Shown: in pieces, positions 14,022 to 59,347 of the stretch
Position numbering within the stretch: position 1 is the stretch's first letter
How the letters are laid out: every line of letters begins with the position of its first letter
Source of the DNA: Paratrimastix pyriformis
Taxonomy: Eukaryota > Preaxostyla > Paratrimastigidae
Assembly: GCA_027972325.1 (NCBI GenBank)
Contig: JAPMOS010000104.1
Coordinates: 50,001 to 114,000, forward strand
Length of the DNA: 64,000 nt
Reading direction: 5' to 3'
Notes under the pieces: model-generated
What the model saw: only the letters and a program-made list of their open reading frames with translations
Told to the model about the DNA's origin: nothing
The model's database searches: none
Position numbers and translations under genes: made by a program

Positions 14022-14083
14022 AGACAGCATGCCAAAGGAATCACACTGCCTCCCAACTCGTGCCTGCCAAAGGGGGGAACTCC

Positions 14084-15252: not shown

Positions 15253-15435
15253 GGGTGTCCCCGCGGCGTTCTGGGCATCACAGGCCCCGCTCGTGGGTGC
15301 TTCCGACCGACCCGGGGGTTTGTCACACAGGACTCCGGGTGGTGCGTCATGGGAGTGGGGTGGTGGTGCTCTTTGAGCGCAGAGACGCTGCCAGCTCGGC
15401 TAAGGTCATGTCCTCTCCCGAGTCTGCGTCGACGT

Positions 15436-17470: not shown

Positions 17471-17529
17471 ATGTTTGCAACCACTCCTCCCGGTGCCGAG
17501 CCAGCCTGTCTGTCCAGTGGTGCGGGCAA

Positions 17530-18300: not shown

Positions 18301-19440
18301 TTTATTGAACTGATCTCCTGCAGGTCCGTCACTCTCCACAACTCGTGTGCTGGGCCTGCTCGATGCTCGTGCCGGAGTCCTCAGCACCCAGCCCATCTCG
18401 GCTGCATCCGTGGTCAGGATCAGCTCTGCTGGTGGGGTCCGAAGTGGGGTGCTGGTGGGGTACTGTGCATGTTCCCACCACTCCAAGTCCCTGTGTGACT
18501 CCTCCGAAAGGGTCACCAGTGCGTGCCATCCCCCTGCGCCTTGATCGCCGTGGACAGGTCGATGTTCAGGTTGCGCAGGTACAAGCAGGCCGGGCGAATC
18601 GTCTCCCTGCATGACATAAACCCGATCACCGCTGCCAATGATTTGGCTTTGATGGTGGTGCACTGTTGGGTGTTGCGCCATCTCTCTCACCTTCTGTGCC
18701 TTCTCGGGTGGGGTGAGAGTGTCATCGCTCGAGTGTCGAGGACAAACCCAGGAACTCCAGCATTTGAACTGGTTCCACTTGGGTTTTGTCCCAGCTGATC
18801 TCGAACCCGAGTGAGAGAAGGTGACGAAGGAGTGCCAGTGTATGCAGCTTGGTCTCCTGTGGTGACCTGCCCAACCAGGAGGTCGTCGATGTAGTGGACT
18901 ACCAAGATGCCGTGTCTCCGGGCTTCCTTGATTGCCACTCTCATGGTCTTTGTAAAGATTCTGGGAGCCACATTCAGGCCGAATGGGAGGGCTTGGAAGC
19001 GATATTCCGTGCCCTCCCATTCGACTCCCAGGTATTTCCGGTGAGGTGGAAAGATCGGGATGTGAAAGTATGCATGTTTCAAGTCGATCTTGGTGGCCCA
19101 CATCATGGGCTCCACCACGGCCCTCACCGTCTTCCACCCCTCCATTTTGAAGGAGGGGCAGAAGATGAAGTGATTCAAGGCGGTGAGGTCAGGATCAACC
19201 TCCATTTCCCGCCGGGCTTGGGCCGCCCAAAATGGGAGATCTCATCCCTTGTCCGACCCCCTGGATCGTTTTCAGTGCCGATATCCCAAGGTACTCCTGG
19301 ACCACCGCCTCCAAGCCCAGTTTCTCCTCCCCACCAAGTGGTAAGGGTCCCGGGACCACGTCCCCGGGTTGGGTGGGGGTCCCTTGAACGGGATGTGAAA
19401 CCCTTCCGATACCACCTGTGTGTGTGTGTGTGTGTGTCAT
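18300..19440 (-). pseudogene. DIRS reverse transcriptase region, unit B (fossil)
   Basis: Contains the same RT motifs as unit A (KIDLKHAYFHIPI, FQALPFGLNVAPRIF, VHYIDDLLV) and the start of RNase H, nearly identical at base level apart from many tiny differences. It is preceded in reading order by the shared leader with a (TG)n tract near 19,415-19,437. It looks more damaged than the other RT units and merges into the blended zone at its left side. Confidence 0.8.
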
Positions 19441-19684
19441 ACATGTTTGCAACATAGAGATGCAAAACTCCCGATTCCGGCCGAAGCCGGGGGGTAACAT
19501 GACCCCAGTCCTCCCATGTCCCCGCAATTCTGCGGGCAACTAGGGCTAGGGGCGGGGCTATGGTGACAGGGAGAGGTAGAAAAGAACGGGGGAGGGGACC
19601 AAGGAATAGGGTGGATCGAGGAGATAAATCAGGGAAAGACTGAACAACGGGACAAAAGATTGAACCGAAAGGAACACAATTCCC

Positions 19685-20859
19685 TTACATTGGGACTTCT
19701 TGGGCGTTGGGCATCCGCGTCCCCATGTACCATCTGGTACTGGTGCGGAACACGAACATCGGGGCGTGTTGTTGGCGGATCCACCATCCAAAGTCCCGCC
19801 TCCGCGGCCCGTCCGGTCCCGCGGGCACTCGAGCCGCCCCGCTCCCCTTCAACCCCAGATCCGTGGGGCAGAGCGAGGCTCCCTTCGGCGTGGCAAGAAG
19901 CCCTTGCGCTGGGGCAGGGACAAGCGCAGGGGCAGCATGGGCAGGGGCAGCATGGGCAGGGGCAGCATGGGCAGGGGCAACATGGGCAGGGGCAACATGG
20001 GCAGGGGCAGGGGCAGGGGCAGGGGCATGGGCATGGGCCACAGTGGGAGTCGCAGTGGGGGCTGGTGCAGATGCAGTGGGGGCTGGTGCAGATGCAGTGG
20101 GGGCTGCTGCAGATGCAGTGGGGCTGGGGCGGCACCCTGGCGAACGGATTCCCGACCGGCGCGGGCTGCTGGTGGGCAACAGCAGGGCGCACAGCAAAAG
20201 GATTGCTGTCAGCCTTCTCCTCAACCCTGTCCTTCTTCTTTGCTGGCGAAGGTTCAGGGGGATGGCGGACGTGGCCGACTCGTACCACCTCCAAGCTGAA
20301 GCGGGGCAGCTGAGGGGTCGATGCAATGTGCGGTCACTTTTCCGGGAGGCTGTTTGACAGTGCTCGGTGACTTTGGACACAGGGCCGGATTGCGGCGAAG
20401 CAGTGGACGGGTTCACCGAAGCCACAGGTCGGGCGGGAACGGGGTCGCCATCGATACTCGCGATACAGTAACGGGCTTGCTGGAAGACTCCAAATTGAAA
20501 ATGGTGGCACCACAAATGAATTGAATCAATTGCGCAAGCTTTTGGCAGCACAGAGATTGATCGCCCCCCGCCGACCGTAGAATGCTCAAACTGATGCGCT
20601 GAAGCAACTTGGTCGACGGGATGCGCTTCTCAGAGGCCACCAAATACCCAAAAAGTTTGCCAAACTCAGGGATCATGGTAGAAGTGAAGGAAAGACGGCT
20701 CAGCTGGTCCATGCTCCGGAAGATAGCTCGATGATCGTCGAGCTCGTCAATAAAGCACAGAAATGGATCTTCTTCATCAAGAATAGAAGCATGTTTTTCA
20801 ATAAAAGCAATGGTTGCGTCGTCCAGATCATCATTCACCGCAGTGATTTCGCAGGCCAT
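19685..20859 (-). pseudogene. Gag-like ORF type 2, copy 1 (retroelement fossil)
   Basis: Begins MACEITAVNDDLDDATIAF. An acidic, helical N-terminal part (about 120 residues; FLCFIDELDDHRAIF, LSRLSFTSTMIPEFGKLF, CQKLAQLIQFICGATIF) is followed by a linker with SNPFAVRPAV and GNPFARV. A long Ala-Pro-His low-complexity region comes next, then a SLCPTDLGLKGSG segment. The order, the NPFA words and the low-complexity run mirror gag-like type 1, so the two are probably diverged homologues. It is placed just upstream of RT unit B, as expected for ORF1 of a DIRS element. Broken. Confidence 0.55.
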
Positions 20860-21335
20860 AGCCCTGCGTAAATCGTGTTGAACTGAGAATAGTGCCGGGG
20901 GAGTCACCACCTGTGCCACTTCCCGAGGTGGTCTGAGGGCCAACCACTCCTCCCGGTGCCGAGCCAGTGCTGAGCGACGTGCCCCTGCCGAGCCCGAGCT
21001 GATGTTGTTGTTGTTGTTGTGATACTATTTCGACTGCCAGTAACTGCGCGCAAAACACAGAAAACTGAAACAGAAGAAAATCCGTTCATCCGGTCGAAAC
21101 CGGCGGGTAACATGCCGACCTACACCCCCTCAGGGGTAGGCGCACAGACGGCATGGCGGGAAAGAGAGAGACTGGAATGTCGCCAGGAAACAGAATCGTT
21201 CAAACACTTGACAGCAAACAGAAGGAACATCAAAAGAAAGAACGGGGCAAGGGGGGGGGACAAAAGGATCCAACACTGAGACACGGGACACGAGGAACAA
21301 TGAAAGGGGGCGAAGGAAGCAAAAGACAAGAACAG

Positions 21336-22454
21336 TTAGAACGAAAAATATTCCCGAACCCAGCCTGAGGGGGGGGCGGAACCCATCCACCATGACCTAC
21401 CACCTCGGTAGGACAGGCGCACGGGCCCCTGAATCCACCACCCCCACACACGTTGCTCCCTTCCCAAAGGCCCACGGTTGGCAACAGGCGAGAGGTCGGA
21501 GAGGCTAATCTTCGGAGGCACGGCAGAAGCGGCATGGTCGGGCGTCGAGGTAGCACGAGCGGGCGCAGCAGGCACAGCAGACAAAGGGGACACACCAGCA
21601 GCAACAGAGGCAGCAACAGGGGCAACAACAGGGGCAGCAACAGGGGCAGCAACAACAGGGGCAGCAACAGGTGCAGGTGCAGGTGCAGGTGCAGGTGCAG
21701 GTGCAGGTGCAGGTGCAGGTGCAGGTGCAGGTGCAGGTGCAGGTGCAGGTGCAGGTGCAGGTGCAGGCGCAGGCGCAAAAGCCGGAGCATGAGATGAAGT
21801 CGGAGCCGGAACAGGTGCCGGCTTGGCGAATGGGTTCGCCAAGGTGAGAGGTGCTCTTGGGGCAGCGGAAGAGGCAAATGGATTGCTCGAAGAAGGGGAA
21901 CGGGCTCTCTCCTTCTTCCCCGCTGGACGATCGCCATCGATGATCGGGTGGCGAGTTCCACCTCCACCTCCAAGTTGCTTTGGACCACGGTATGTAGTCT
22001 CCCCAACAGATAGGAGGACTCGTTCTGGCGGTGTGCGGTGTTTGTCCACAGACGAGCCGCGCGATGATTCTTGTGGCACGTGGCAGTCGAAAGTTCGCAC
22101 ATTCGATTGCTGGAACAATAAAGCCCCAAGAAGTTGGAAAATAAACTGGCTGATCGCTTCAGGCTGCTTCTTCGGATTGTCCTCCAGCAGCATGTGCACC
22201 GTGCGTTCGATGATCTCATAGCGTGGAGCACGGTGCTCATTGACGACCAATGAACTGAAGAGCTTCATAAGCTCCAAACGCATCCAAGGAGAGAGCTTGT
22301 CCAATGGAGCTGAAGAGGGGGACCACAGATGCCGACCCAACTCATCTTGAAGATACTCTACCATAGGGTCGTCACGACTTTGGATCTCGGCGTGATCCAT
22401 AATAAAGTTGGAATCGTCCTTACTGAGCTCGTCATGCTCAGTGGCGATCTCCAT
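21336..22454 (-). pseudogene. Gag-like ORF type 1, copy c (retroelement fossil)
   Basis: Starts MEIATEHDELSKDD, as at 4,648, and stays recognisable to the end (WVREYFSF). This is the best preserved type 1 copy, with an even longer Ala-Pro run from the GGTGCA hexamer (about 21,667-21,770). Its leader abuts a recombinase-gene piece at about 22,515, where a run of G joins CCCGAGCTGAGG. Its downstream flank (21,005-21,335) matches 3,460-3,783. Confidence 0.55.
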
Positions 22455-22519
22455 GGCCAGAAACGGGCAGAACGCGGAGCAAAGGGAACGTGCAACGCCG
22501 AGACTTCAACCGGGGGGGG

Positions 22520-23000
22520 CCCGAGCTGAGGTCCCTCTCCATGGCTTCATCCGCGATGAACGAGGCGACCTGGACCTCATTCTGGTCGGTCGCCTCCGTG
22601 ATCGGAGCCAGGTCTTTGAGCGCGCACCACTCTTCATAGCGGCGAATGATGTGTGAGTATTTCTTCGAGGTTTTCTCTGCCAATGACCTCTGAATGAAAT
22701 AACCTGCCGCTGCCGACAGCTCCGGATGCTTAGGGGCCCAAGCAGGAGCCTCATCTGAGAGCTTTTTCCGGGCTGTGGGTGTGGGTGTCGCGCGTCCTGG
22801 GGCAGGACCTTTCTTGCCCGGGCGGAACAGAGTTCCGTCCACGGGTGTCCCCGCGGCGTTCTGGGCATCACAGGCCCCGCTCGTGGGTGCTTCCGACCGA
22901 CCCGGGGGGTTTGTCACACAGGACTCCGGGTGGTGCGTCATGGGAGTGGGGGTGGTGGTGCTCTTTGAGCGCAGAGACGCTGCCAGCTCGGCTAAGGTCA
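22520..23000 (-). pseudogene. N-terminal piece of DIRS tyrosine recombinase, unit C (fossil)
   Basis: Carries the KKLSDEAPAWAPKHPELSAA and AEKTSKKYSHIIRRYEEW segments, the SAM-like N-terminal domain, matching 14,930-15,400. It leads directly into gag-like type 1 in reading order and has no catalytic core. Confidence 0.75.
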
Positions 23001-23053
23001 TGTCCTCTCCCGAGTCTGCGTCGACGTCTACAGCTCCCTGTCCCACTGTGGGA

Positions 23054-25060
23054 TCAGGGGCTCGTTGCTCCCCCACCAGGCCTCCGGGTCGTCGAAGATC
23101 CGGGCTGGACCCATGGGGTGCAGCTGTCGGTCCTGGAACTTCTGGACGAGGGTGAGATCCGGATTGGTGAGTGTCTGCCAACCCCACTCGAGGTGTGCCC
23201 TGGCTTGCCGGACTGGGTCCCCGACACCTGTGTCACACAACACTCCCAGTGTGGGGGCCCAATTCCCTTGAGGTTGCGTGTCGTGCCTGCCAGGAATGTG
23301 TTCTCCTGCCGTGGTAGGGTCAGGGGTGGTGCCACTGCCATGTGCAGCATCACTGGCCACCACGGTGCCGATGTCCACACCGGGGTGAGGAGAAGAGCCT
23401 CCCCCCGCTGCTCCCTCAACCGTTCCAAGACTCTGAGGATGAGCGAGAACGGTGGGTTTATCCACGGCACTTCTGAGGCTAGGTTCTGCCGGAAGAAGTC
23501 CACTCCCGCCGCTCCCGGTTCCTTGACCAAGGACCAGAACCGTGGGCACAGGTGGTTTCGCGCCGATGCAAAGGCGTCCACCGTCGGCTTCGTCCTGAGC
23601 TTCACCACCGCCCTGAAGAGGGCTGGGTGGAGCTGGTAATCTTCGGCGTCGACCCACCGCGAGAGCCTGTCCGCTCTCACGTTGTCGGTGCCGTGAGAAT
23701 GTGCTCTGTGGTGAGGGTGATCTGGTGTGTCTGGCAGAACTCCCAGAGTGTTCTCAACCGGGTGTTGAGCTGCTGGCTCTGTGACTTGAGTCTGCCGACT
23801 GACCACACGACAGACGAATTGTCCGAGAACCAAAGTACGGACTTGCCCGTGACCTGTTCCCGGAACAGGTGGAGTGACCTGATGCCCGCTTCCAATTCGA
23901 GCGGGTTTATTGAACTGATCTCCTGCAGGTCCGTCACTCTCCACAACTCGTGTGCTGGGATGCCCTGCTCGATGCTCTGTGCCGGAGTCCTCAGCACTGC
24001 CCCCCAGCCCATCTCGGCTGCATCCGTGGTCAGGATCAGCTCTGCTGGTGGGGTCCGAAGTGGGGTGCTGGTGGGGTACTGTGCATGTTCCCACCACTCC
24101 AAGTCCCTGTGTGACTCCTCCGAAAGGGTCACCAGTGCGTGCCATCCCCCCTGCGCCTTGATCGCCGTGGACAGGTCGATGTTCAGGTTGCGCAGGTACA
24201 AGCAGGCCGGGCGAATCGTCTCCCTGCATGACGACATAAACCCGATCACCGCTGCCAATGATTTGGCTTTGATGGTGGTGCACTGTTGGGTGTTGTGCGC
24301 CATCTCTCTCACCTTCTGTGCCTTCTCGGGTGGGAGTGAGAGTGTCATCGCTCGAGTGTCGAGGACAAACCCCAGGAACTCCAGCATTTGAACTGGTTCC
24401 ACTTGGGTTTTGTCCCAGCTGATCTCGAACCCGAGTGAGAGAAGGTGACGAAGGAGTGCCAGTGTATGCAGCTTGGTCTCCTGTGGTGACCTGCCCAACA
24501 CCAGGAGGTCGTCGATGTAGTGGACTACCAAGATGCCGTGTCTCCGGGCTTCCTTGATTGCCACTCTCATGGTCTTTGTAAAGATTCTGGGAGCCACATT
24601 CAGGCCGAATGGGAGGGCTTGGAAGCGATATTCCGTGCCCTCCCATTCGACTCCCAGGTATTTCCGGTGAGGTGGAAAGATCGGGATGTGAAAGTATGCA
24701 TGTTTCAAGTCGATCTTGGTGGCCCACATCATGGGCTCCACCACGGCCCTCACCGTCTTCCACCCCTCCATTTTGAAGGAGGGGCAGAAGATGAAGTGAT
24801 TCAAGGCGGTGAGGTCCAGGATCAACCTCCATTTCCCGCCGGGCTTGGGCCGCCCAAAAATGGGAGATCTCATCCCTTTGTCCGACCCCCCCTGGATCGT
24901 TTTCAGTGCCGATATCCCAAGGTACTCCTGGACCACCGCCTCCAAGCCCAGTTTCTCCTCCCCCACCAAGTGGTAAGGGTCCCGGGACCACGTCCCCGGG
25001 TTGGGTGGGGGTCCCTTGAACGGGATGTGAAACCCTTCCGATACCACCTGTGTGTGTGTG
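23054..25060 (-). pseudogene. DIRS reverse transcriptase / RNase H / methylase region, unit C (fossil)
   Basis: Nearly identical to unit D and very close to unit A. All RT motifs (DLTALNHF, FQALPFGLNVAPRIF, VHYIDDLLVLG), RNase H motifs and the WINPPFSLILRVL methylase motif are present. The leader at 25,050-25,170 includes a (TG)n tract and a GTTACCCCCCGGCTTCGGCC segment. It is broken by a few events. High identity to the other units suggests recent duplication or assembly redundancy. Confidence 0.85.
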
Positions 25061-25323
25061 TGTGTGTGTCATACATGTTTGCAACATAGAGATGCAAAAC
25101 TCCCGATTCCGGCCGAAGCCGGGGGGTAACATGACCCCCAGTCCCTCCCATGTCCCCCGCAATTCTGCGGGCAACTAGGGCTAGGGGCGGGGGCTATGGT
25201 GACAGGGAGAGGTAGAAAAGAACGGGGGGGGAGGGGACCAAGGAATAGGGTGGATCGAGGAGATAAATCAGGGAAAGACTGAACAACGGGACAAAAGATT
25301 GAACCGAAAGGAACACAATTCCC

Positions 25324-26457
25324 TTACATTGGGACTTCTTGGGCGTTGGGCATCCGCGTCCCCATGTACCATCTGGTACTGGTGCGGAACACGAACATCG
25401 GGGCGTGTTGTTGGCGGATCCACCATCCAAAGTCCCGCCTCCGCGGCCCGTCCGGTCCCGCGGGCACTCGAGCCGCCCCGCTCCCCTTCAACCCCAGATC
25501 CGTGGGGCAGAGCGAGGCTCCCTTCGGCGTGGCAAGAAGCCCTTGCGCTGGGGCAGGGACAAGCGCAGGGGCAGCATGGGCAGGGGCAGCATGGGCAGGG
25601 GCAGCATGGGCAGGGGCAACATGGGCAGGGGCAACATGGGCAGGGGCAGGGGCAGGGGCAGGGGCATGGGCATGGGCCACAGTGGGAGTCGCAGTGGGGG
25701 CTGCTGCAGATGCAGTGGGGGCTGGGGGCGGCACCCTGGCGAACGGATTCCCGACCGGCGCGGGCTGCTGGTGGGCAACAGCAGGGCGCACAGCAAAAGG
25801 ATTGCTGTCAGCCTTCTCCTCAACCCTGTCCTTCTTCTTTGCTGGCGAAGGTTCAGGGGATGGCGGACGTGGCCGACTCGTACCACCTCCAAGCTGAAGC
25901 GGGGCAGCTGAGGGGTCGATGCAATGTGCGGTCACTTTTCCGGGAGGCTGTTTGACAGTGCTCGGTGACTTTGGACACAGGCCGGATTGCGGCGAAGCAG
26001 TGGACGGGTTCACCGAAGCCACAGGTCGGGCGGGAACGGGGGTCGCCATCGATACTCGCGATACAGTAACGGGCTTGCTGGAAGACTCCAAATTGAAAAT
26101 GGTGGCACCACAAATGAATTGAATCAATTGCGCAAGCTTTTGGCAGCACAGAGATTGATCGCCCCCCGCCGACCGTAGAATGCTCAAACTGATGCGCTGA
26201 AGCAACTTGGTCGACGGGATGCGCTTCTCAGAGGCCACCAAATACCCAAAAAGTTTGCCAAACTCAGGGATCATGGTAGAAGTGAAGGAAAGACGGCTCA
26301 GCTGGTCCATGCTCCGGAAGATAGCTCGATGATCGTCGAGCTCGTCAATAAAGCACAGAAATGGATCTTCTTCATCAAGAATAGAAGCATGTTTTTCAAT
26401 AAAAGCAATGGTTGCGTCGTCCAGATCATCATTCACCGCAGTGATTTCGCAGGCCAT
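25324..26457 (-). pseudogene. Gag-like ORF type 2, copy 2 (retroelement fossil)
   Basis: Same protein as 19,685-20,859, with a shorter Ala-Pro-His repeat. It starts MACEITAVNDD and keeps the NPFA linker words. It is preceded in reading order by ALFSVQHDLRRA and by the recombinase N-terminal piece of unit D. Confidence 0.55.
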
Positions 26458-26559
26458 AGCCCTGCGTAAATCGTGTTGAACTGAGAATAGTGCCGGGGGA
26501 GTCACCACCTGTGCCACTTCCCGAGGTGGTCTGAGGGCCAACCACTCCTCCCGGTGCCG

Positions 26560-26990
26560 AGCCAGTGCTGAGCGACGTGCCCCTGCCGAGCCCGAGCTGA
26601 GGTCCCTCTCCATGGCTTCATCCGCGATGAACGAGGCGACCTGGACCTCATTCTGGTCGGTCGCCTCCGTGATCGGAGCCAGGTCTTTGAGCGCGCACCA
26701 CTCTTCATAGCGGCGAATGATGTGTGAGTATTTCTTCGAGGTTTTCTCTGCCAATGACCTCTGAATGAAATAACCTGCCGCTGCCGACAGCTCCGGATGC
26801 TTAGGGGCCCAAGCAGGAGCCTCATCTGAGAGCTTTTTCCGGGCTGTGGGTGTGGGTGTCGCGCGTCCTGGGGCAGGACCTTTCTTGCCCGGGCGGAACA
26901 GAGTTCCGTCCACGGGTGTCCCCGCGGCGTTCTGGGCATCACAGGCCCCGCTCGTGGGTGCTTCCGACCGACCCGGGGTTTGTCACACAG
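26560..26990 (-). pseudogene. N-terminal piece of DIRS tyrosine recombinase, unit D (fossil)
   Basis: Near-identical to 22,545-22,960 and to the upstream part of the recombinase at 14,084-15,252 (KYSHIIRRYEEWCALKDL). The catalytic core is absent here, as the sequence passes into gag-like type 2. Confidence 0.75.
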
Positions 26991-27095
26991 GACTCCGGGT
27001 GGTGCGTCATGGGAGTGGGGTGGTGGTGCTCTTTGAGCGCAGAGACGCTGCCAGCTCGGCTAAGGTCATGTCCTCTCCCGAGTCTGCGTCGACGT

Positions 27096-28890
27096 TCACA
27101 GCTCCCTGTCCCACTGTGGGATCAGGGCTCGTTGCTCCCCACCAGGCCTCCGGGTCGTCGAAGATCCGGGCTGGACCCATGGGGTGCAGCTGTCGGTCCT
27201 GGAACTTCTGGACGAGGGTGAGATCCGGATTGGTGAGTGTCTGCCAACCCCACTCGAGGTGTGCCCTGGCTTGCCGGACTGGGTCCCCGACACCTGTGTC
27301 ACACAACACTCCCAGTGTGGGGCCCAATTCCCTTGAGGTTGCGTGTCGTGCCTGCCAGGAATGTGTTCTCCTGCCGTGGTAGGGTCAGGGGTGGTGCCAC
27401 TGCCATGTGCAGCATCACTGGCCACCACGGTGCCGATGTCCACACCGGGGTGAGGAGAAGAGCCTCCCCGCTGCTCCCTCAACCGTTCCAAGACTCTGAG
27501 GATGAGCGAGAACGGTGGGTTTATCCACGGCACTTCTGAGGCTAGGTTCTGCCGGAAGAAGTCCACTCCCGCCGCTCCCGGTTCCTTGACCAAGGACCAG
27601 AACCGTGGGCACAGGTGGTTTCGCGCCGATGCAAAGGCGTCCACCGTCGGCTTCGTCCTGAGCTTCACCACCGCCCTGAAGAGGGCTGGGTGGAGCTGGT
27701 AATCTTCGGCGTCGACCCACCGCGAGAGCCTGTCCGCTCTCACGTTGTCGGTGCCGTGAGAATGTGCTCTGTGGTGAGGGTGATCTGGTGTGTCTGGCAG
27801 AACTCCCAGAGTGTTCTCAACCGGGTGTTGAGCTGCTGGCTCTGTGACTTGAGTCTGCCGACTGACCACACGACAGACGAATTGTCCGAGAACCAAAGTA
27901 CGGACTTGCCCGTGACCTGTTCCCGGAACAGGTGGAGTGACCTGATGCCCGCTTCCAATTCGAGCGGGTTTATTGAACTGATCTCCTGCAGGTCCGTCAC
28001 TCTCCACAACTCGTGTGCTGGGATGCCCTGCTCGATGCTCTGTGCCGGAGTCCTCAGCACTGCCCCCCAGCCCATCTCGGCTGCATCCGTGGTCAGGATC
28101 AGCTCTGCTGGTGGGGTCCGAAGTGGGGTGCTGGTGGGGTACTGTGCATGTTCCCACCACTCCAAGTCCCTGTGTGACTCCTCCGAAAGGGTCACCAGTG
28201 CGTGCCATCCCCCCTGCGCCTTGATCGCCGTGGACAGGTCGATGTTCAGGTTGCGCAGGTACAAGCAGGCCGGGCGAATCGTCTCCCTGCATGACGACAT
28301 AAACCCGATCACCGCTGCCAATGATTTGGCTTTGATGGTGGTGCACTGTTGGGTGTTGTGCGCCATCTCTCTCACCTTCTGTGCCTTCTCGGGTGGGAGT
28401 GAGAGTGTCATCGCTCGAGTGTCGAGGACAAACCCCAGGAACTCCAGCATTTGAACTGGTTCCACTTGGGTTTTGTCCCAGCTGATCTCGAACCCGAGTG
28501 AGAGAAGGTGACGAAGGAGTGCCAGTGTATGCAGCTTGGTCTCCTGTGGTGACCTGCCCAACACCAGGAGGTCGTCGATGTAGTGGACTACCAAGATGCC
28601 GTGTCTCCGGGCTTCCTTGATTGCCACTCTCATGGTCTTTGTAAAGATTCTGGGAGCCACATTCAGGCCGAATGGGAGGGCTTGGAAGCGATATTCCGTG
28701 CCCTCCCATTCGACTCCCAGGTATTTCCGGTGAGGTGGAAAGATCGGGATGTGAAAGTATGCATGTTTCAAGTCGATCTTGGTGGCCCACATCATGGGCT
28801 CCACCACGGCCCTCACCGTCTTCCACCCCTCCATTTTGAAGGAGGGGCAGAAGATGAAGTGATTCAAGGCGGTGAGGTCCAGGATCAACC
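27096..28890 (-). pseudogene. DIRS RT/RNase H region, unit D, part left of the Maverick (fossil)
   Basis: RT from DLTALNHFIF through VHYIDDLLVLG, RNase H and the methylase motif are visible. The Maverick at 28,891-54,471 sits inside this unit, and the sequence resumes at 54,472. The uninterrupted equivalents in units A, B, C and E show the pre-insertion sequence at the target. Confidence 0.85.
28886..28890. repeat. Target site duplication CAACC (left copy; right copy 54,472-54,476)
   Basis: The empty site in other DIRS units reads GGATCAACCTCCATTTCC. Left of the element the sequence is GGATCAACC, and right of it CAACCTCCATTTCC. CAACC is therefore present on both sides, a 5-bp duplication consistent with an rve-family integrase (5-6 bp is usual for this group). 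The adjacent C/G runs make the exact boundary uncertain by a base or two. Confidence 0.85.
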
Positions 28891-29351
28891 CCCCCCCGCT
28901 AGTTGCACAGCCTTGTGTTCATATCGTATCATGTCGGCTCGCGCCTCCACTCTACTCTTATCTTTCCCTATTATGATCTTCTTAATATGGTTGGGATGTT
29001 CCGGCTCATCATGCACGGCGCAGCCGTGGTATGATGAAGTCGGGACATCTTATTATGGATACCCTATATGATCTATTATTTCAGTAACTCTTCAGTAACT
29101 TATTAACTATTAATATTTATGATTGTATTTTAATAGATATTAATAAGTTATGTTGATATAAGATCATATAAGTAGTTATATTTAAGGAGTTACTAAAGGA
29201 GTTATTAAAGAGTTACTCAAAAGTTCGTGTCATAGAGGTAATGAGCTTTATGATGGGTTTACGTCAGGAGATTTAACACAAGAAAGTTACCCAAAGGGTG
29301 TAAATAGGGAAGATTATTGGGGAAAATAGGGGTATTTCCTGGTAATAAGTT
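28891..29351. repeat. Left terminal inverted repeat of the Maverick
   Basis: 461 bp, opening with CCCCCCCGCTAGTTGCACAG. It matches the reverse complement of 54,011-54,471 without a difference that I could find. It contains several AGTTACT(C/G/A)AA and AGTTATTAA words. The outer 160 bp are mixed in composition and the inner part is AT-rich. Confidence 0.95.
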
Positions 29352-49737: not shown

Positions 49738-50252
49738 ATGAACAAAGATTTAGAAGCAATGTGCGATCATTTTGATGATTTGATTAATGTCGCCACACAT
49801 TTTGATATTGTCCTCATGAATCTACAAATTGATGACAACTTTTTGAGAAGACACAAATCATAGATATATGCGAGGATCAATTTGATAGACTCAATTCTAT
49901 CGTGGATGAAATTCGTGATATGAATTGTAATAACAAAGATCATTTAGATTTCATATCCAATAAATATGGAAAGTTACGACTAGACGCTCTTACTACATTA
50001 TTCAATTCAATAAAATCATATTTCCTTCATCTCAATCGGACCACTATAGAAGACTATTATATGGGTAATCATACAGATGCAGGTGATATATACTTGTTTG
50101 GCTTCATAGGAAGTAATCAATATACATTATTAGAATGTGAAAAGCTATACGAACAATCAAAAAAATATAAGGGAGAAGGTAATTCGGAATTAAAACTCGT
50201 TCCTTTCGATTTTAATGATCCATTCAAAAGTGCAAATCGCGAAAAATATTAA
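49738..50252 (+). CDS. Orphan gene, unknown function, probably broken
   Basis: Protein-like sequence starts at the ATG at 49,738 (MNKDLEAMCDHFDDLINVA) and is most evident in the 116-codon frame at 49,902-50,252 (DFISNKYGKLRLDALTTLF, GDIYLFGFIGSNQYTLL). Acidic and helical overall. No family recognised. It looks damaged. Confidence 0.45.
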
Positions 50253-50457
50253 AACAGTGGTGAAAACACTCAACAAAATAACTTTGCCTCATAAAGATGA
50301 CTCTTCATCTGATGATGATAAAGGAACTATTTATGGTGATGCTATTAAATCATTCAATAAAGGTGTTCAAAAGATGATAAAACGGAAAAACACGATGACA
50401 TCGGGGGATCTGCGATCCTTCGCAGCATCCTCACGGTGCTGGCGAGCAAAGCTCTAA
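50215..50457 (+). CDS. Short basic/acidic frame with an embedded GC-rich segment
   Basis: 80 codons, with Lys-rich helix, DSSSDDDKGT and MIKRKNTMTS. From about 50,402 to 50,472 the base composition jumps to GC-rich (CTGCGATCCTTCGCAG foldback, GGTGCTGGCGAGCAAAGC) before returning to AT-rich. The natural frame of this gene is therefore doubtful at its end. Function unknown. Confidence 0.4.
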   Translation: MIHSKVQIAKNIKTVVKTLNKITLPHKDDSSSDDDKGTIYGDAIKSFNKGVQKMIKRKNTMTSGDLRSFAASSRCWRAKL

Positions 50458-50579
50458 GCGCCGCGAGAATGACACTTCTTCTGATGAAGATACCGATAGT
50501 TAATTAATATAATATACTTTTCTTTAATTTTAAAGTTATTTAAAGAAAAAATGTATAGTATCTGTATAAGAGCAATAGT

Positions 50580-50885
50580 ATGAGATATATCAACAAGAAT
50601 GATTCCAACCAAATCATATATTTAGCTTGTCATTCCGACGGTATCATTAGATTTTTACATAGAAAATCAAGTCGAGAATTCTTAATAGAGTGTGCTAATG
50701 TGTTTAATTTACTGATTTCTGTATATAGTAATATACAAGCGGAACTTAATAGTATGAGACAGGGATTTAATTCTCCTGAAGATCTAAATAAGTTTAAATC
50801 CATATCAGATTTATATACGTCATATGTAGATGCTCTAGAAAAGATGCATAAATATGATCTTATCCTCTTCGACGATTACAAATAG
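50580..50885 (+). CDS. Small helical protein, unknown function
   Basis: 101 codons, beginning MRYINKNDSNQIIYLACHSD. Helical, with AELNSMRQGFNSPEDLNKFK in the middle. It is AT-rich like the rest of the element and stops 24 bases before the GC-rich ORF. Not recognised. Confidence 0.5.
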   Translation: MRYINKNDSNQIIYLACHSDGIIRFLHRKSSREFLIECANVFNLLISVYSNIQAELNSMRQGFNSPEDLNKFKSISDLYTSYVDALEKMHKYDLILFDDYK

Positions 50886-50908
50886 TTCATTGTAATAATC
50901 TACAATAT

Positions 50909-52090
50909 ATGATTGAGACAGCGCAAGCCATCTTCCGTGTGCGCAAGTACCGGATGCATGAAGGCCTCATCGTCTACCAACATCGTAAGTGTGAAGCCAA
51001 AAGCCAGTCACTGGCTCAAATCCTCTCGCTCGGCAACACCGTCGAACGCGCATTCTTCGATGGCCGCTGCGATTGGACGATTCCACAACAAGTGCTCGCA
51101 ATGCTGGATGCGCGCAGCAATGAGCTGATGAACGGGTCGCTTCCCTTCGTCGTTCAAGCCCTCAAGCAACACAACTACAACCTCAACTTCGCCGAGCTGA
51201 GCGCACCCGAACTCGATCCCGTCGAACTGTGGAAACCCGATATGAGCAACAAGATCATTTGCCTGATGGGATGGACACAGGATGCAGATGGCCACTGGAC
51301 TCGCGCGCCGGAGCACTGGACACCAACGGCTGAGGAGATGACTCAACTTGGCGTGAGAAACAACACAGCTTACCTGCTCACTGTCCGCGATCCGCTGTTT
51401 GAAGAGAAGAAGGCCTGGTACGAAATGATTCGAGACCTTGGGATGGATGCCGAATCGGGCTCCAACGTTCAACCGCGCGACGTCATCATCTATCATCATC
51501 GTGCAACGCTTAGCGCGTACCACAAACTCATCAAGGCGCAAGGCGAGACGCACGGAACGGCAAACATCGTGCGTGGCGTGGCCCTTCTCCGTAACGTTCA
51601 CGACAAGTGCACCGGCGCTGAAACGATTGCCACGTTGCCCGCAGAGGTTCCGAGACCGGACATCAACGCACAAATCAAGAAGGTCTCAGCCGTCATCGCC
51701 GAACAAGGTCGTACAGAGAAAGCAGTTGCGCGATCGGGTCTTCAGACGCGTGGCGCAGCATCCGTCGTCCCGCAAATCGATCGCAGCATCGTCCTTCGAA
51801 TCGCGAAGGAGGTAATGGACACTGCGCAGCGCCATGGTACAACATTGGAGTTCAGCTCCGACGAGGCGGCACGCTCAACATCAGCAGATGAGGTGATCAG
51901 AATCCTGGAGGCTCACAAAGAAGAGCTGAAGACGACTCATGTAGTCTCACGCTTCGACGTAACGAAAGCGCACGAGATGGTATACAACCTCATGCTTAAT
52001 GCCGGCCATCAGATCGCGAAGTGGACATCAGCACGGAAGCAAGTCGATGGACAACGATATCGCGTCTACACGCTCAACCTCGATTCGTAA
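50909..52090 (+). CDS. GC-rich orphan ORF, candidate cargo gene
   Basis: 393 codons, with many G/C-ending codons, in sharp contrast to the AT-rich genes around it. It begins MIETAQAIFRVRKYRMHEGL. Notable segments are RCDWTIPQQVLAMLDARSNE, KIICLMGWTQDADGHWTRAPEHW (Trp-rich), RDVIIYHHRATLSAYHKL, and a helical C-terminal half with TTLEFSSDEAARSTSADEV. I recognise no family. The composition change begins at its start and lasts to about 52,790, through an array of GTGGCCAC palindromes. This suggests acquisition from a GC-rich genome, perhaps the host's, as a module. An intact frame of this length with biased codons suggests recent coding function. Confidence 0.65.
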   Translation: MIETAQAIFRVRKYRMHEGLIVYQHRKCEAKSQSLAQILSLGNTVERAFFDGRCDWTIPQQVLAMLDARSNELMNGSLPFVVQALKQHNYNLNFAELSAPELDPVELWKPDMSNKIICLMGWTQDADGHWTRAPEHWTPTAEEMTQLGVRNNTAYLLTVRDPLFEEKKAWYEMIRDLGMDAESGSNVQPRDVIIYHHRATLSAYHKLIKAQGETHGTANIVRGVALLRNVHDKCTGAETIATLPAEVPRPDINAQIKKVSAVIAEQGRTEKAVARSGLQTRGAASVVPQIDRSIVLRIAKEVMDTAQRHGTTLEFSSDEAARSTSADEVIRILEAHKEELKTTHVVSRFDVTKAHEMVYNLMLNAGHQIAKWTSARKQVDGQRYRVYTLNLDS

Positions 52091-52142
52091 CCGCCGCCGG
52101 TGTCACACGTTCCCCGTAACGTCCGGACCCCCTCTATCTCAA

Positions 52143-52787
52143 GTGGCCACCTACATATTCCCAAGACTTCCATCGCCGCGCTCCCGCGTAGGTGGCCACC
52201 TTCCCCGTAACGTCCGGACCCCCTCTATCTCCTACGAGTGGCCACGTAGGAAGTCTTGGGAAATTGAACGTGGCCACTATCGCTAGACCCCCCTCCGGAG
52301 ACCCTTCCGCCTTTTTAGCCTCTCCGAACCCCCCTTAGTCGCTCTTGCAGCAGGTACGCTGGTGGCCACCTACAACATGCGCGGGGTCTGAGTTTAACGT
52401 CCGAGGGGGGTCTACTGACTACCAAAAGATGGCTCGCCATACTATCTATTATTTCTTAAGTCTTCCCGGAACTTCCAACGTGGCCACTTTCGCTAGACCC
52501 CCTTACTCGCTCTTGCGGCCCCTCCTCGGCGTGTGTGCCATTTTCGACCTTGCCGACGGGGGAAGCGGCAAGGGTTCTGGAGATAACGATAGTAAAGGGG
52601 CGATCAACGCGAAATGGGAAGTGGCCACCTACACCGAACACGAAGTGGCCACCTACACGAGAACCAAGGTGGCCACCTACTCGGGAAGCGTCGGCGAAGG
52701 CCGATCAACGCGAAATGGGAAGTGGCCACCTACACCAAAACGAATAGTATATAGTAGTAGGTCGAGCCATCTTTTGTAGGTGGCCAC
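52143..52787. repeat. Array of eleven GTGGCCAC palindromes
   Basis: Exact GTGGCCAC starts at 52,143, 52,192, 52,238, 52,270, 52,362, 52,480, 52,621, 52,645, 52,669, 52,722 and 52,780. Several extend toward GTAGGTGGCCACCTAC. Two longer words are repeated: CCCCGTAACGTCCGGACCCC (near 52,112 and 52,203) and GATCAACGCGAAATGGGAAG (near 52,602 and 52,703). CCAAGACTTCC and GGAAGTCTTGG face each other at 52,160-52,260. Spacing is irregular. The interval has no convincing gene and may bind a regulator dimer. Confidence 0.85.
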
Positions 52788-52913
52788 CTAGTGATATCAA
52801 CCGCAAAGTTACTGATATCAAAATCGAGAAACTGGGAAGACCCCCGATTTTTTGAAGTCGCGCAAAACTCGCAAATTTTATATAAACGCGGACTTCCCAA
52901 TATTTTATATACG

Positions 52914-52982
52914 GCCCACCCACCCACCCACCCACCCACCCACCCACCCACCCACCCACCCACCCACCCACCCACCCCACCC
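52914..52982. repeat. (CCCA)n microsatellite
   Basis: About 17 tandem CCCA units. The complementary GGGT strand could form G-quadruplexes. It lies in AT-rich sequence just past the GC-rich cargo block. Confidence 0.95.
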
Positions 52983-53169
52983 AGGTTTTAAAAACAGCTA
53001 AATTTAACCCAGATAATAAAAGTTTGGAAATCTCCGAAGAATACAATCGATATCACAATGAATATGATAAATTAAATCATTTTATGACTTTGCGAAACGT
53101 GGTTTATATATAAACCCATATAATGATTGATAAGTAATCAATAGTATTAGGTATTTAATATTATTGATC

Positions 53170-54010: not shown

Positions 54011-54471
54011 AACTTATTACCAGGAAATACCCCTATTTTCCCCAATAATCTTCCCTATTTACACCCTTTGGGTAACTTTCTTGTGTTAAATCTCCTGACG
54101 TAAACCCATCATAAAGCTCATTACCTCTATGACACGAACTTTTGAGTAACTCTTTAATAACTCCTTTAGTAACTCCTTAAATATAACTACTTATATGATC
54201 TTATATCAACATAACTTATTAATATCTATTAAAATACAATCATAAATATTAATAGTTAATAAGTTACTGAAGAGTTACTGAAATAATAGATCATATAGGG
54301 TATCCATAATAAGATGTCCCGACTTCATCATACCACGGCTGCGCCGTGCATGATGAGCCGGAACATCCCAACCATATTAAGAAGATCATAATAGGGAAAG
54401 ATAAGAGTAGAGTGGAGGCGCGAGCCGACATGATACGATATGAACACAAGGCTGTGCAACTAGCGGGGGGG
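54011..54471. repeat. Right terminal inverted repeat of the Maverick
   Basis: Reverse complement of 28,891-29,351, ending TGCAACTAGC and seven G residues. The inner boundary is where GGTAATAAGTT ends and the two sides diverge. Confidence 0.95.
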
Positions 54472-54811
54472 CAACCTCCATTTCCCGCCGGGCTTGGGCC
54501 GCCCAAAAATGGGAGATCTCATCCCTTTGTCCGACCCCCCCTGGATCGTTTTCAGTGCCGATATCCCAAGGTACTCCTGGACCACCGCCTCCAAGCCCAG
54601 TTTCTCCTCCCCCACCAAGTGGTAAGGGTCCCGGGACCACGTCCCCGGGTTGGGTGGGGGTCCCTTGAACGGGATGTGAAACCCTTCCGATACCACCTGT
54701 GTGTGTGTGTGTGTGTGTCATACATGTTTGCAACATAGAGATGCAAAACTCCCGATTCCGGCCGAAGCCGGGGGGTAACATGACCCCCAGTCCCTCCCAT
54801 GTCCCCCGCAA
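54472..54811 (-). pseudogene. DIRS unit D, part right of the Maverick (fossil)
   Basis: Continues the RT leader found in unit C (24,825-25,165): AARREMEV on one frame, the HTHTHTHT (TG)n tract at about 54,697-54,717, and the GGCTTCGGCCGG segment. At about 54,812 it joins abruptly to RNase H sequence of unit E, a mosaic junction within the DIRS region. Confidence 0.8.
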
Positions 54812-54814
54812 TTC

Positions 54815-56055
54815 TCATCGAGTCTGCCGACTGACCACACGACAGACGAATTGTCCGAGAACCAAAGTACGGACTTGCCCGTGACCTGTTCCCGGAACAG
54901 GTGGAGTGACCTGATGCCCGCTTCCAATTCGAGCGGGTTTATTGAACTGATCTCCTGCAGGTCCGTCACTCTCCACAACTCGTGTGCTGGGATGCCCTGC
55001 TCGATGCTCTGTGCCGGAGTCCTCAGCACTGCCCCCCAGCCCATCTCGGCTGCATCCGTGGTCAGGATCAGCTCTGCTGGTGGGGTCCGAAGTGGGGTGC
55101 TGGTGGGGTACTGTGCATGTTCCCACCACTCCAAGTCCCTGTGTGACTCCTCCGAAAGGGTCACCAGTGCGTGCCATCCCCCCTGCGCCTTGATCGCCGT
55201 GGACAGGTCGATGTTCAGGTTGCGCAGGTACAAGCAGGCCGGGCGAATCGTCTCCCTGCATGACGACATAAACCCGATCACCGCTGCCAATGATTTGGCT
55301 TTGATGGTGGTGCACTGTTGGGTGTTGTGCGCCATCTCTCACCTTCTGTGCCTTCTCGGGTGGGAGTGAGAGTGTCATCGCTCGAGTGTCGAGGACAAAC
55401 CCAGGAACTCCAGCATTTGAACTGGTTCCACTTGGGTTTTGTCCCAGCTGATCTCGAACCCGAGTGAGAGAAGGTGACGAAGGAGTGCCAGTGTATGCAG
55501 CTTGGTCTCCTGTGGTGACCTGCCCAACACCAGGAGGTCGTCGATGTAGTGGACTACCAAGATGCCGTGTCTTCGGGCTTCCTTGATTGCCACTCTCATG
55601 GTCTTTGTAAAGATTCTGGGAGCCACATTCAGGCCGAATGGGAGGGCTTGGAAGCGATATTCCGTGCCCTCCCATTCGACTCCCAGGTATTTCCGGTGAG
55701 GTGGAAAGATCGGGATGTGAAAGTATGCATGTTTCAAGTCGATCTTGGTGGCCCACATCATGGGCTCCACCACGGCCCTCACCGTCTTCCACCCCTCCAT
55801 TTTGAAGGAGGGGCAGAAGATGAAGTGATTCAAGGCGGTGAGGTCCAGGATCAACCTCCATTTCCCGCCGGGCTTGGGCCGCCCAAAAATGGGAGATCTC
55901 ATCCCTTTGTCCGACCCCCTGGATCGTTTTCAGTGCCGATATCCCAAGGTACTCCTGGACCACCGCCTCCAAGCCCAGTTTCTCCTCCCCACCAAGTGGT
56001 AAGGGTCCCGGGACCACGCCCCGGGTTGGGTGGGGGTCCCTTGAACGGGATGTGA
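54815..56055 (-). pseudogene. DIRS reverse transcriptase region, unit E (fossil)
   Basis: RT motifs KIDLKHAYFHIPI, FQALPFGLNVAPRIF and VHYIDDLLVLG, plus early RNase H (LILTTDAAEMGWGAVL, VLWFSDNSSVVW). It lies directly downstream of gag-like type 3 in reading order and keeps the natural start-of-element order. It is broken and lacks the later RNase H and methylase parts. Confidence 0.85.
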
Positions 56056-56059
56056 AACC

Positions 56060-58656
56060 CTTCCGATACCACCTGTGCCACTTCCCGAGGTGGTCTGAGG
56101 GCCAACCACTCCTCCCGGTGCCGAGCCAGCCTGCCTGCCAGTGGTCCCCGAGGTGGGTGCTGTGCCAGCAGCCGCAGTTTGGCCTGCTCCCGGTCCCATT
56201 GAGGGTCCAGTCCGAGAAGGAAGGGGTCCCTCCCCCCAGGGGTTAGGACTGTCCCTCCCCGAGCTGAGCCCCTTGGGCCGTGTTATGGGGTGAGGCGGAG
56301 TTTCCCCTGAGGGGTGGGGGTGAGTGGGTTCCCGAGTTGGGTGCCTGCCCTCCCGGGACTTGGCACCCTCCTCCGGTCCCGTGACGGGGTTGTGGGGGAG
56401 AGCGGGAACAAGACGGGGCGGAGGGGTGAGGGAGTGCATGAAGGGTGGTGCAGGTGTGCTGGACAGACTGCTGCCGCCCTCCCTTGCTCTGGTCCCACTC
56501 CCGGGCCAGGTAGGTCTTGCCCTGCCATTTGATCTGGCCGTTTTGGGGTTACTTTTATCGGCGCCACCCCCAGGGGCGCCTGGTCGCCCCCCACCCCCGC
56601 ACCCGTACCGGAGGGGTGGTGGGGACGCGAGTCGCTGCCTCCGCCACTGAGGTGCATGAGCTTCACCGCCAACGCTAGCGGAACGTGTGAGTGGGTGTTT
56701 CCGGGACCCTGCCTCGCAGACCTCCCCGCGTGTCCCCGCATTGGGGAGTGTGACCGCCTCTGACTGTGTATCGGTCCGTCTCGGGTTCACAAACCCCTCG
56801 CCCAAGGTCGGCGGATCCTTCTCGCCGGTCTCTGTGTAGCCCCCCACGTTCGGGACCTCCTTGGGTGACGCTCGCCCCGCTGAGGTGACGACGCTAACCT
56901 GGGGTGTGAGTTGCTGTTCCGAGTCCCCAACCTCGCAGACCTCCATGAGGGTTTCAGGTTTGCCCGACGAGATCGCCTCCGCATGTCCTTCCGTCAGCAC
57001 CGTGTGCTGCCCCTCTTCGGGGGTCTCTCCGGTGAGTGCCTGCCTCACCTGGGGTAATGTCCTCGCGCGGAGGGTTCCGGTGGGTAGTGTTCCCATGCCG
57101 CGAGTCTCCCTGGGTGATGTTCCCTCCATCGACCCGTCAGAGCCTGGACTGGACCCCCAGGCCCGCCCCGACTGCCCCACGGGCTTTGTTGCCTTGTCCT
57201 GCTCTGAGTGTGAGAGTGACTGTGCGGTAGGGCTCATGCAGACTGCCTCTCCGAGTGCTGGCGATGACGCCTGCGAGGGTGTGATCACCGGTGCTGATCC
57301 GTCCGGTGCCGGTGGAACTGGTGCAGAAGTTGTTTCCAGTTTAGCCACGGTTGTGCCGAGTGGAACACCACAAGGACTGGCTTCCCGGACCAAAGACTGA
57401 TGAGTATCGAGTATTTCAGCATTGTGCGGTGCGAGTTGGTGAGCAGCAGACCCTTCACCTTTTTCTTCTTGTTGATTGTAACGTGTCTCTTGGCAAGACA
57501 ACGCCACGGAGCGAGGAAAAGGAGGGGCTGCACCCGAATTGAATGCCAATGAGCCTTCTGTGACCCCAGTTGGTTGTGGGCTCTGTGATGATAAGGCCAA
57601 CGAGGTTGGTCGAAAAGCGTGCGCCAACGGAGGACCCGAGGGCAGACAAAATTCTGGGGACAGAAAGTGGGTTTTCTTGCGCCGTCTTGACTTTGGAATA
57701 ACCCAGAGGTAGTCCGTGCTGTTTGACTTGGTGTTTTTGGGAGTGCCCGTGTCCACACCCAGTGTGGCAGAGGAGGCCATGGGCAGACCCGGGTTTAGTG
57801 GCTTTTTCCTGGCCTCGGTGGCGGCTTTGTTCTTCAAAGCCTCCAGCTCGCTGGCCTCGATGATGCAGGCCTCGGGCATCTTCGTCCCGTCCTCCAGCCG
57901 GCACAGTGGGCGCCACTCGCTCCGGCGGAGGTCGCTAAGGGTCCTCGTCGTTTCCTTGAGGGCATCCAGAGCCAGGATGCCAAGGTTTCGAGCGGCCTCG
58001 AATGAGAGCTCAGACGGCGATGATGCCGTCGAAAGGTTGGCGAGTGCCACCAGAGTCTGTAGAGGGCGCATAGCGGAGAACACCCCTGCTGTAGCCCGAG
58101 CCAGCGCACTGTCCCGTTGAGTCGCCGCCTTCCGCAGGTCTGGATCAATGAGGCGCAAGGCACTCACTGGTGGTGCAACTGCAGGATCGGCCTTGCCTTG
58201 GTCTCGAAAGTTGGGAAACGCGCGGCCGACGTGAACAACGCGAGCGAATTCCTCTTGTGTCGGTGCTTCGTGTTGAAGACGATTGAATTGCAGCCCCAGC
58301 ATCTGCAAAGTCTGTGCTTCTCTTTCTGGTAAGGTTGGAGGAGTCACCACCTTTTTTGTAGGGGCCTCCTTCGCAAAGATGTCCGGTAACTTGGCCGTTG
58401 GTTTGAAATAGATCTGTTGGAGAGTATCGAAGTAGTATTGTCCGACTTCCTCTTGATCTTGATCGCTTTCACCTTCTTTTTCTTCAGGATTTGTTGCACC
58501 CAACAGAGAGCTGTCACCCTCCGCTCCAGTGTCGCCTTCAGGGTCAGGAGGTTGGGTTTGGGGGCCAGGGTTGGCCGGGTGTTCAGGGTCAAGGGCGGGC
58601 CCCTGTTGCTGCTGGGTCTGTTGTTGTGGTGTTGCTTGTTGATCTGCTTGATCCAT
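56060..58656 (-). CDS. DIRS gag-like ORF1, type 3 (retroelement part)
   Basis: Starts MDQADQQATPQQQTQQQQGP, a Gln-rich leader, then an acidic stretch. A helical region follows at about residues 90-270 (YYFDTLQQIYFKPTAKLPDI, EAQTLQMLGLQFNRLQHEA, FARVVHVGRAFPNF, SALARATAGVFSAMRPLQTL), typical of DIRS/Ngaro-type ORF1 products. The remainder is Pro/Ser/Thr/Gly-rich and poorly conserved. Its place between the right ITR and RT unit E fits ORF1. Types 1 and 2 elsewhere are shorter and share no obvious identity with it. The tail merges into the RT leader. Confidence 0.65.
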
Positions 58657-58694
58657 TCTTTGCCCAATAGGGATGCGTCTTGAAGCGTGCGAAA

Positions 58695-58861
58695 CGCAAA
58701 GGGCAGGGTACACTATCCGTGTCAGCTGACATGGAATTTCTTTCTATTTGTGGTCAGTGCCGCTTTTTGCGTTGCCTGACGTGATGTCTATTTTACTGGG
58801 GGTTTGGGAAGATGAAGGTCGTCGAGATTGATTACTCGTTCGCCGAGGCTCCGAGGCTGAA
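58695..58861. repeat. Right inverted terminal repeat of the DIRS element
   Basis: Reverse complement of 12,907-13,047 for the inner part. The outer end reads GGTCGTCGAGATTGATTACTCG then CGCCGAGGCTCCGAGGCTGA, which is the version found in the right half of the internal complementary region. The boundary near 58,861 is set by where the match to 13,950-14,021 stops. Confidence 0.85.
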
Positions 58862-59347
58862 TACCGACTCTCCGGTGCCATCTGTGTTGAGTTGCACAAG
58901 GTACTTAACCGGTTGGGACTCACCTTCGGAAAAATCCTGTTTTCGATGACCTGCGGTCAAAGTGCTGATATCGAGAAGACCTACCAGTTCCTGACTTCAA
59001 GAGCCTTGATGATTCTTGTGTGTCTGGATTCCGAGGCTGCATTCGGCGTCGACCGTGCCGTCGATGGCCACATGAGGCTGGATGAGCTTGCCCTCTGGGA
59101 ACGCACTTTCCCCTTCTACGTCAAGGAGGTTTTTCATGACCGTTCCATGTTGGAACTCACTGACTACTACGGAGAACAGTTCCCCAAGGTATTCCAGGCT
59201 TGCGAACGTGAATACCTCGCTCTCTCCGAAGACGAACGGAAGACCTATGACTGGTCGATTCAGTGCCACAAGTTCCGCACCAACACCTGCTACCGCGAGA
59301 TTCCGGCCCATTGGGACTGTCTCTTCAAGTTCACTGGGAACGCATAA
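58862..59347 (+). CDS. Host-like gene family, copy 1, 5' end cut off by the DIRS element
   Basis: The open frame begins at the DIRS end and reads LSGAICVELHKVLNRLGLTF, then IEKTYQFLTSRALMILVCLD, MRLDELALWERTFPFYVKEV, LTDYYGEQFPKVFQACEREY and EDERKTYDWSIQCHKFRTN. It ends FKFTGNA. The same protein recurs at 60,330-61,040, where sequence upstream of the shared part exists (NPGLIVPVHFLKPLTEYHFS). Copy 1 therefore appears to have lost its 5' part at the element boundary. No start codon of its own is evident. I recognise no domain. It could be a small host multigene family. Confidence 0.55.
   Translation, partial: YRLSGAICVELHKVLNRLGLTFGKILFSMTCGQSADIEKTYQFLTSRALMILVCLDSEAAFGVDRAVDGHMRLDELALWERTFPFYVKEVFHDRSMLELTDYYGEQFPKVFQACEREYLALSEDERKTYDWSIQCHKFRTNTCYREIPAHWDCLFKFTGNA

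Follow-up and report, generated by a model that had tools for sequence, protein, structure and literature searches.

We asked why one short palindrome, GTGGCCAC, should recur eleven times within 645 bp of the Paratrimastix pyriformis genome. The array lies in a stretch of 64,000 nucleotides (the window, in whose positions all coordinates below are given unless another copy is named), next to a GC-rich open reading frame. A first reading, made from the sequence alone, had placed both in a Maverick, called the frame an orphan gene, and offered an operator array, an origin or segregation site, or a methylation-sensing region as possible functions.

Eleven palindromes form an organised array

All eleven exact copies of GTGGCCAC claimed for 52143-52787 were present where they had been placed (starts at 52143, 52192, 52238, 52270, 52362, 52480, 52621, 52645, 52669, 52722 and 52780). 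The window holds twelve copies in total, the twelfth at 14885; outside the block there was none in the Maverick part (23,485 bp) and one in the host part (38,419 bp). The view that such a cluster is not due to chance was borne out by shuffle controls, both over the whole window and locally. One hundred dinucleotide shuffles of the whole window gave a mean of 1.32 copies and at most 6, and 300 shuffles of 52091-53000 alone a mean of 0.01 and at most 1. Longer repeated flanking words were likewise found, as direct repeats of 41, 35 and 26 nt. The proposed extension of the sites toward the 16-mer GTAGGTGGCCACCTAC held in part: partial flanks exist, mostly on one side (CTAC directly 3' of the palindrome at 6/11 sites, GTAG directly 5' at two, 52192 and 52780), and the full 16-mer occurs at none of the eleven. 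In the 56 Mb genome there are 103 copies of the longer word GTGGCCACCTAC versus 14 of its reversed control, and by our reading most of the 100 places listed sit in clustered arrays.

The array belongs to a second element nested in the Maverick

The Maverick extends from 28891 to 54471. In 1-kb windows its GC content is 0.30-0.39, that of the block at 51-53 kb 0.56 and that of the host mostly 0.55-0.67. Repeated reverse-transcriptase-like frames (YIDD, read by eye) lie around it at 14000-28700 and 54500-59000. A Maverick origin of the array was rejected: neither GTGGCCAC nor the two words found in its place in other copies, GTGTSACAC and GTGTGCAC (see below), occurs in the 23,485 bp of Maverick DNA, and the block is absent from an uninterrupted copy. 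That copy, a related Maverick on C447 (L020), aligns to the window at 50115-50855 and again from 53000 on; between these flanks it has only 51 bp, which in the window lie inverted at 50856-50906. In the C447 copy a Maverick frame of 160 codons reads through the site; in the window this frame is cut. From the alignment on both flanks and the cut frame, the insert is therefore 50911-52999 (2,089 bp). The interrupted frame and the inverted 51 bp can be seen at 50560-50910 and 53000-53130. The features of the region are as follows.

28891-29351, no strand: left terminal inverted repeat of the AT-rich host Maverick (461 bp, 100% identical, inverted, to 54011-54471)
50856-50906, no strand: 51-bp Maverick segment in the opposite orientation to its counterpart in the uninterrupted C447 copy
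50909-52090, plus strand: open reading frame of 393 codons, C-terminal piece of a PolB/UL9-like origin-binding fusion, its start codon completed across the junction
50911-52999, plus strand: relic insert from a GC-rich virus-like element, cut short on the left within a coding frame and ending on the right at the shared element terminus
51599-52087, plus strand: last 163 residues of the frame, predicted helices followed by a winged-helix-like end (AlphaFold2 mean pLDDT 82.3, 18-row alignment)
52072-52999, no strand: terminal inverted repeat of the GC-rich element, common to both kinds of element end from 52072 and including the last codons of the frame
52100-52108, no strand: GTGTCACAC, variant first site, in 16/16 aligned arrays of both types
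52143-52787, no strand: array of eleven GTGGCCAC palindromes (word search, shuffles)
52871-52914, no strand: AT-rich stretch (GC 0.32) between array and C-rich tail
52915-52983, no strand: (CCCA)n tail, adjoining the terminus in the copies read
52984-52999, no strand: terminal sequence GGTTTTAAAAACAGCT; CAGCT stands here in 12/21 termini
54011-54471, no strand: right terminal inverted repeat of the Maverick, partner of 28891-29351

Homologous copies elsewhere in the genome begin or extend upstream of 50911. Thus the array is not a part of the Maverick in which it had been placed but of a second element inserted into an AT-rich Maverick gene, and the window keeps only a truncated end of that element. 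A host satellite misjoined into the Maverick had been named as one outcome that would overturn the first interpretation; the interval indeed does not derive from the Maverick, yet what was inserted is a virus-like element and not host satellite.

The parent element resembles polinton-like viruses

A fuller relative spans about 22 kb. It has genes for a packaging ATPase and a fibre-like protein, together with one for a giant fusion of a family-B DNA polymerase with a UL9-like origin-binding helicase (OBP). Both ends were read in one element, on C215 (4184-26437), whose terminal inverted repeats (TIRs) are 95.4% identical over 831 bp. This size and the TIRs fall within the definition of a polinton-like virus (PLV; about 14-40 kb with terminal inverted repeats). 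The ATPase is of the A32 type (PF04665, E 2.8e-11), and another protein carries an S74 chaperone domain, as in fibres. For a 418-aa protein UniRef labels a homologue Major capsid protein, with no Pfam match and a structure model of pLDDT 31. The fusion gene is broken in this copy, and no integrase or recombinase was recognised among the C215 frames scanned. The element is thus like PLVs in size, TIRs and ATPase, and the 418-aa protein is a candidate capsid protein by its UniRef label.

The arrays are terminal. One array lies directly behind the OBP gene at one end and another behind a different gene at the other end, as on C447, where an OBP-side array at 62706 and an other-end array at 85013 face each other about 23 kb apart. 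They fill the TIRs of about 0.9 kb: the two C215 TIRs contain 9 and 8 words, and in 69,495 bp of non-TIR DNA (12 pieces) GTGGCCAC, GTGTSACAC and GTGTGCAC were counted 3, 0 and 3 times. These data show that the array in the window is part of a TIR of about 0.9 kb, belonging to a GC-rich element of about 22 kb and PLV type that is endogenous in Paratrimastix.

Among 21 termini with flanking DNA (two of which share one junction), 15 have a flank GC of 0.38 or less, and six flanks match the Maverick of the window by protein or DNA, one of them weakly. The GC-rich element therefore often sits in AT-rich, Maverick-like DNA. Ahead of the terminus, the window and other clade-I ends have a simple C-rich repeat, (CCCA)n or CCCCCAT-like, whose opposite strand could form G-quadruplexes. 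At three places, L030 (C179, about 860-930), L029 (C254) and L060 (C364), a pair of element ends is arranged head to head around the palindrome AAAAACAGCTGTTTTT; at L030 one side has GTGGCCAC and the other GTGTGCAC.

The adjacent frame is the tail of a polymerase/origin-binding helicase fusion

The supposed orphan gene at 50909 turned out to be the C-terminus of the fusion protein. The last base of its ATG (50909-50911) is the first base of the insert, and databases carry the relic as a hypothetical protein (P0001). It has 56 matches in the genome, fragments included; the longest open frame around these is 1,966 codons among close copies, and a distant copy has one of 2,192. Longer relatives, which also carry DNA_pol_B, match Herpes_ori_bp (PF02399) at E 6.3e-19, 1.3e-17 and 4.4e-19. 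A profile built from four long proteins found structures of herpes replication origin-binding protein as its best match (E 1.2e-13), followed by family-B DNA polymerases. For one distant family member there is also a match to the protein-primed/organellar model PF03175, so RNA-primed use of an origin is not certain.

Residue 376 of the frame is Arg (52034-52036) and residue 380 Asp (52046-52048), as checked in the codons. In the AlphaFold model they fall in a strand of a hairpin and in its turn, respectively. Structure searches with the OBP tail gave no confident fold match.

The palindrome differs between copies

Four types were distinguished, each with an exemplar: A (C75, GTGGCCAC), B (C289, GTGTSACAC), C (C254, GTGTGCAC) and D (C477, GTGGCCAC). 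We aligned 16 arrays, six of A type, nine of B type and the right end of C215. Eight homologous sites carry GTGGCCAC in A copies and GTGTSACAC in B copies (single copies lack a site), and three further sites exist in A arrays only. Between the window and C289 (B), 53/78 site columns and 585/664 other columns agree; between the window and the other-end array of C41, both of A type, the figures are 106/106 and 722/738. Against a strict pairing of word and protein, every one of the 16 aligned arrays, those of A type among them, has GTGTCACAC as its first site. The right end of C215 is a mosaic of three A-type and five B-type sites, though its OBP is of the Gln type described below.

Among more distant members of clade I, GTGGCCAC was counted 14 times in C477, 8 times in C179p and 6 times in each of two further C179 places, and GTGTGCAC 7 times within 620 bp in C254, 6 times in C179m and 4 times in C364. 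Shuffling any of 14 array regions yielded at most two of any word. None of the three words was seen in C138. Some arrays have been enlarged by tandem duplication, with 23 copies of GTGGCCAC in C246 (L016, 8258-9470) and 14 in C477 (L031).

Palindrome and protein tail change together

The suggestion that the array travels with homologues of the frame proved right for the close clade, where all 21 places with tail and downstream DNA have it, and not for the distant one (0/8). Tails were scanned together with up to 900 bp of downstream DNA, second fetches of the same place being left out. In clade I, all eight places with Arg376 and Asp380 have 6-12 copies of GTGGCCAC (GTGG half-sites), and all 13 with Gln376 have GTGTSACAC or GTGTGCAC (GTGT half-sites), many of the 21 places being near-identical copies. 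Some scan counts need qualification: C276 shows one site because its array is rearranged (the others were found separately), one GTGGCCAC counted for C179m belongs to a facing terminus, and four A places also show the common GTGTCACAC. The GTGT-type word of C179m had been anticipated from its tail before inspection, the prediction being written down only afterwards.

Fourteen fixed residues distinguish four A from eight B sequences, and 13 of these lie in the last 76 of 393. When one A sequence was compared with six B sequences, codons 1-316 gave a pN of 0.006-0.028 and a pS of 0.05-0.46, versus 0.10-0.11 and 0.50-0.53 in codons 317-393. Upstream parts thus seem to have been exchanged between the types while tail and array stayed distinct. 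Since pS is also higher in the tail, the A and B tails differ as a block, beyond the putative specificity residues.

A tree of residues 1-316 grouped C254/C179m and C179p/C477 at 96/94. It placed A beside B at 92/88, short of the value that the tool takes as firm support, and C111 drew a long-branch warning. On this tree the word and the residues would require at least two joint switches. Six of 393 columns separate the word classes (264, 327, 352, 376, 380 and 382; 264 lies outside the wing), three of them uniform in the GTGG class (264, 376 and 380); the control pairing of A+C versus B+D gave four separating columns, two of them uniform. Two switches are few as support for a residue-word code.

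The distant clade lacks these arrays

The OBPs of clade II are 35-47% identical and have Arg376 and Gly380 in 8/8 cases. Within 900 bp downstream none of the three words was found (8/8), and in the first 720 bp no 8-mer occurs three or more times in any of the eight regions. The array is thus a trait of clade I, or the clade-II sites are located elsewhere. We rejected the idea that every divergent OBP has its own array downstream, as the clade-II repeats lie further downstream, apparently in the next gene. Behind the most distant OBP, on C111 (L038, about 1060-1320), there is a different tandem repeat with GACGAGTTGCGATGGTGCGAG, which may be the array of that lineage.

A proposed terminal origin read by the fusion protein

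We propose that the array is probably a cluster of OBP binding sites and a terminal replication origin of the nested element, binding and replication being inferred. The palindromes would be bound by the winged C-terminal domain of the element's own fusion protein, with Arg or Gln at residue 376 reading base pair four of each GTGN half-site. A protein that combines polymerase and origin-binding helicase would need a duplex site for loading, and at both ends the TIR could supply it with dyad clusters, AT-rich DNA and a C-rich tail. The protein would load on the cluster at each end, open the neighbouring AT-rich DNA and start synthesis there, so that each terminus would be the replication origin of its own lineage and would serve lineages with another word poorly. 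As in iteron origins, the repeated sites adjoin the initiator gene and AT-rich DNA; the predicted specificity of the initiator also appears to co-vary with the repeat, as expected of such origins, with exceptions at single sites. An organised array of palindromes resembling protein sites, with an origin among the options, had been part of the sequence-only reading and fits these data; its assignment of the array to the Maverick and its orphan gene were wrong. We give about even weight to a further claim, that co-resident elements are split into origin-recognition groups in which the 376/380 pair (Arg/Asp versus Gln/other) and base four of the half-site switched jointly on at least two occasions.

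The main alternative to an origin, which we consider unlikely but well worth weighing, is that the arrays, bound by the OBP or by a putative integrase, serve in end recognition, packaging, integration or terminus resolution and not in the start of replication. The arrays are terminal and present at both ends, a conserved C-rich tail and the terminus come after them, and some termini are joined head to head, all of which would suit this role. However, no integrase was recognised among the frames scanned, and the partner that co-varies with the sites is a helicase of origin-binding type fused to a polymerase. Both roles could hold. It is less probable still that the co-variation is silent on binding because the OBP tail and the neighbouring array were exchanged as one block by gene conversion. 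The two adjoin each other, A and B look homogenised in the upstream codons (pS down to 0.05, versus about 0.5 in the tail), and the right end of C215 is a patchwork. Several findings speak against such hitchhiking: sites diverge more than their flanks (53/78 versus 585/664 columns agree), A ends away from the OBP still carry A sites (106/106 columns between the window and C41), and GTGGCCAC is again accompanied by Arg and Asp in the lineage of C179p and C477, where the tail groups apart from A.

Repeated dyads and a TATATAA-like sequence near the terminus might instead point to transcriptional control, with the array an operator or enhancer for some other regulator. This is very improbable, as both neighbouring genes end, and do not start, at the array, and no other DNA-binding protein was seen to co-vary in a comparison that covered the OBP only. 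A host satellite or an assembly misjoin, which would account for the GC difference between block and Maverick, can practically be discounted: the same terminus recurs next to many different flanks (21) and stands at either end of a coding element.

Comparison with known systems

In herpesviruses the C-terminal domain of UL9 reads short repeated boxes at oriS, box 1 being GTTCGCAC (PMC12543377). The Paratrimastix element shares with this system a Herpes_ori_bp-type helicase and short repeated boxes at a putative origin, for which a C-terminal domain is the proposed reader; unlike in UL9/oriS, the helicase is fused to a DNA polymerase and the boxes are 8-9 bp dyads in terminal repeats (PMC12543377). 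The RVKNL DNA-recognition motif of alphaherpesvirus UL9 is absent from all five proteins checked. Geminivirus Rep with its iterons would follow a similar working principle to that of fusion and array, although geminiviruses are circular ssDNA with a rolling-circle initiator and the Paratrimastix element is linear-type dsDNA with a polymerase/helicase fusion (PMC12548392).

With PLVs the element has in common that they are endogenous protist elements of about 20-25 kb with an A32-type ATPase, TIRs and a multi-domain replicase (PMC12721341, PMC12220804). The replicase is an SF1 helicase-pPolB fusion in OmPLV (PMC12721341) and a primase-SF2 helicase fusion in a cryptophyte PLV (PMC12220804), whereas here PolB is joined to a UL9-like SF2 helicase. 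Two Paratrimastix fusions measure 1,890 aa (P0005) and 2,153 aa (P0008), versus the 1,486 and 1,718 aa called the longest of the phylum (PMC12721341). GC-rich mobile elements nested inside PLVs have been reported (PMC12220804). The sections of these two PLV papers available to us make no mention of terminal site arrays (PMC12721341, PMC12220804). Mriyaviruses, small relatives of giant viruses, resemble the element in having a UL9-related SF2 helicase, together with a primase, but encode an HUH endonuclease and no DNA polymerase, whereas the Paratrimastix element has the PolB fusion (PMC11253617). Among the literature matches listed, titles and abstract openings held nothing on virus-like elements of Paratrimastix or on polinton-like origin arrays.

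Significance

The case provides an example of a polymerase/UL9-like fusion in a polinton-like element, and it accounts for an annotated 'gene' as the relic of one virus-like element within another. It is hard to study how origin specificity changes without loss of replication, because the change must affect an initiator and every one of its sites at once. A single genome here contains natural variants of initiator and sites as well as a mosaic end, which allows the question to be tested with natural domains and arrays. If the proposed reading is true, these dsDNA elements would hold a readable initiator-origin code, with one mosaic terminus standing between two codes.
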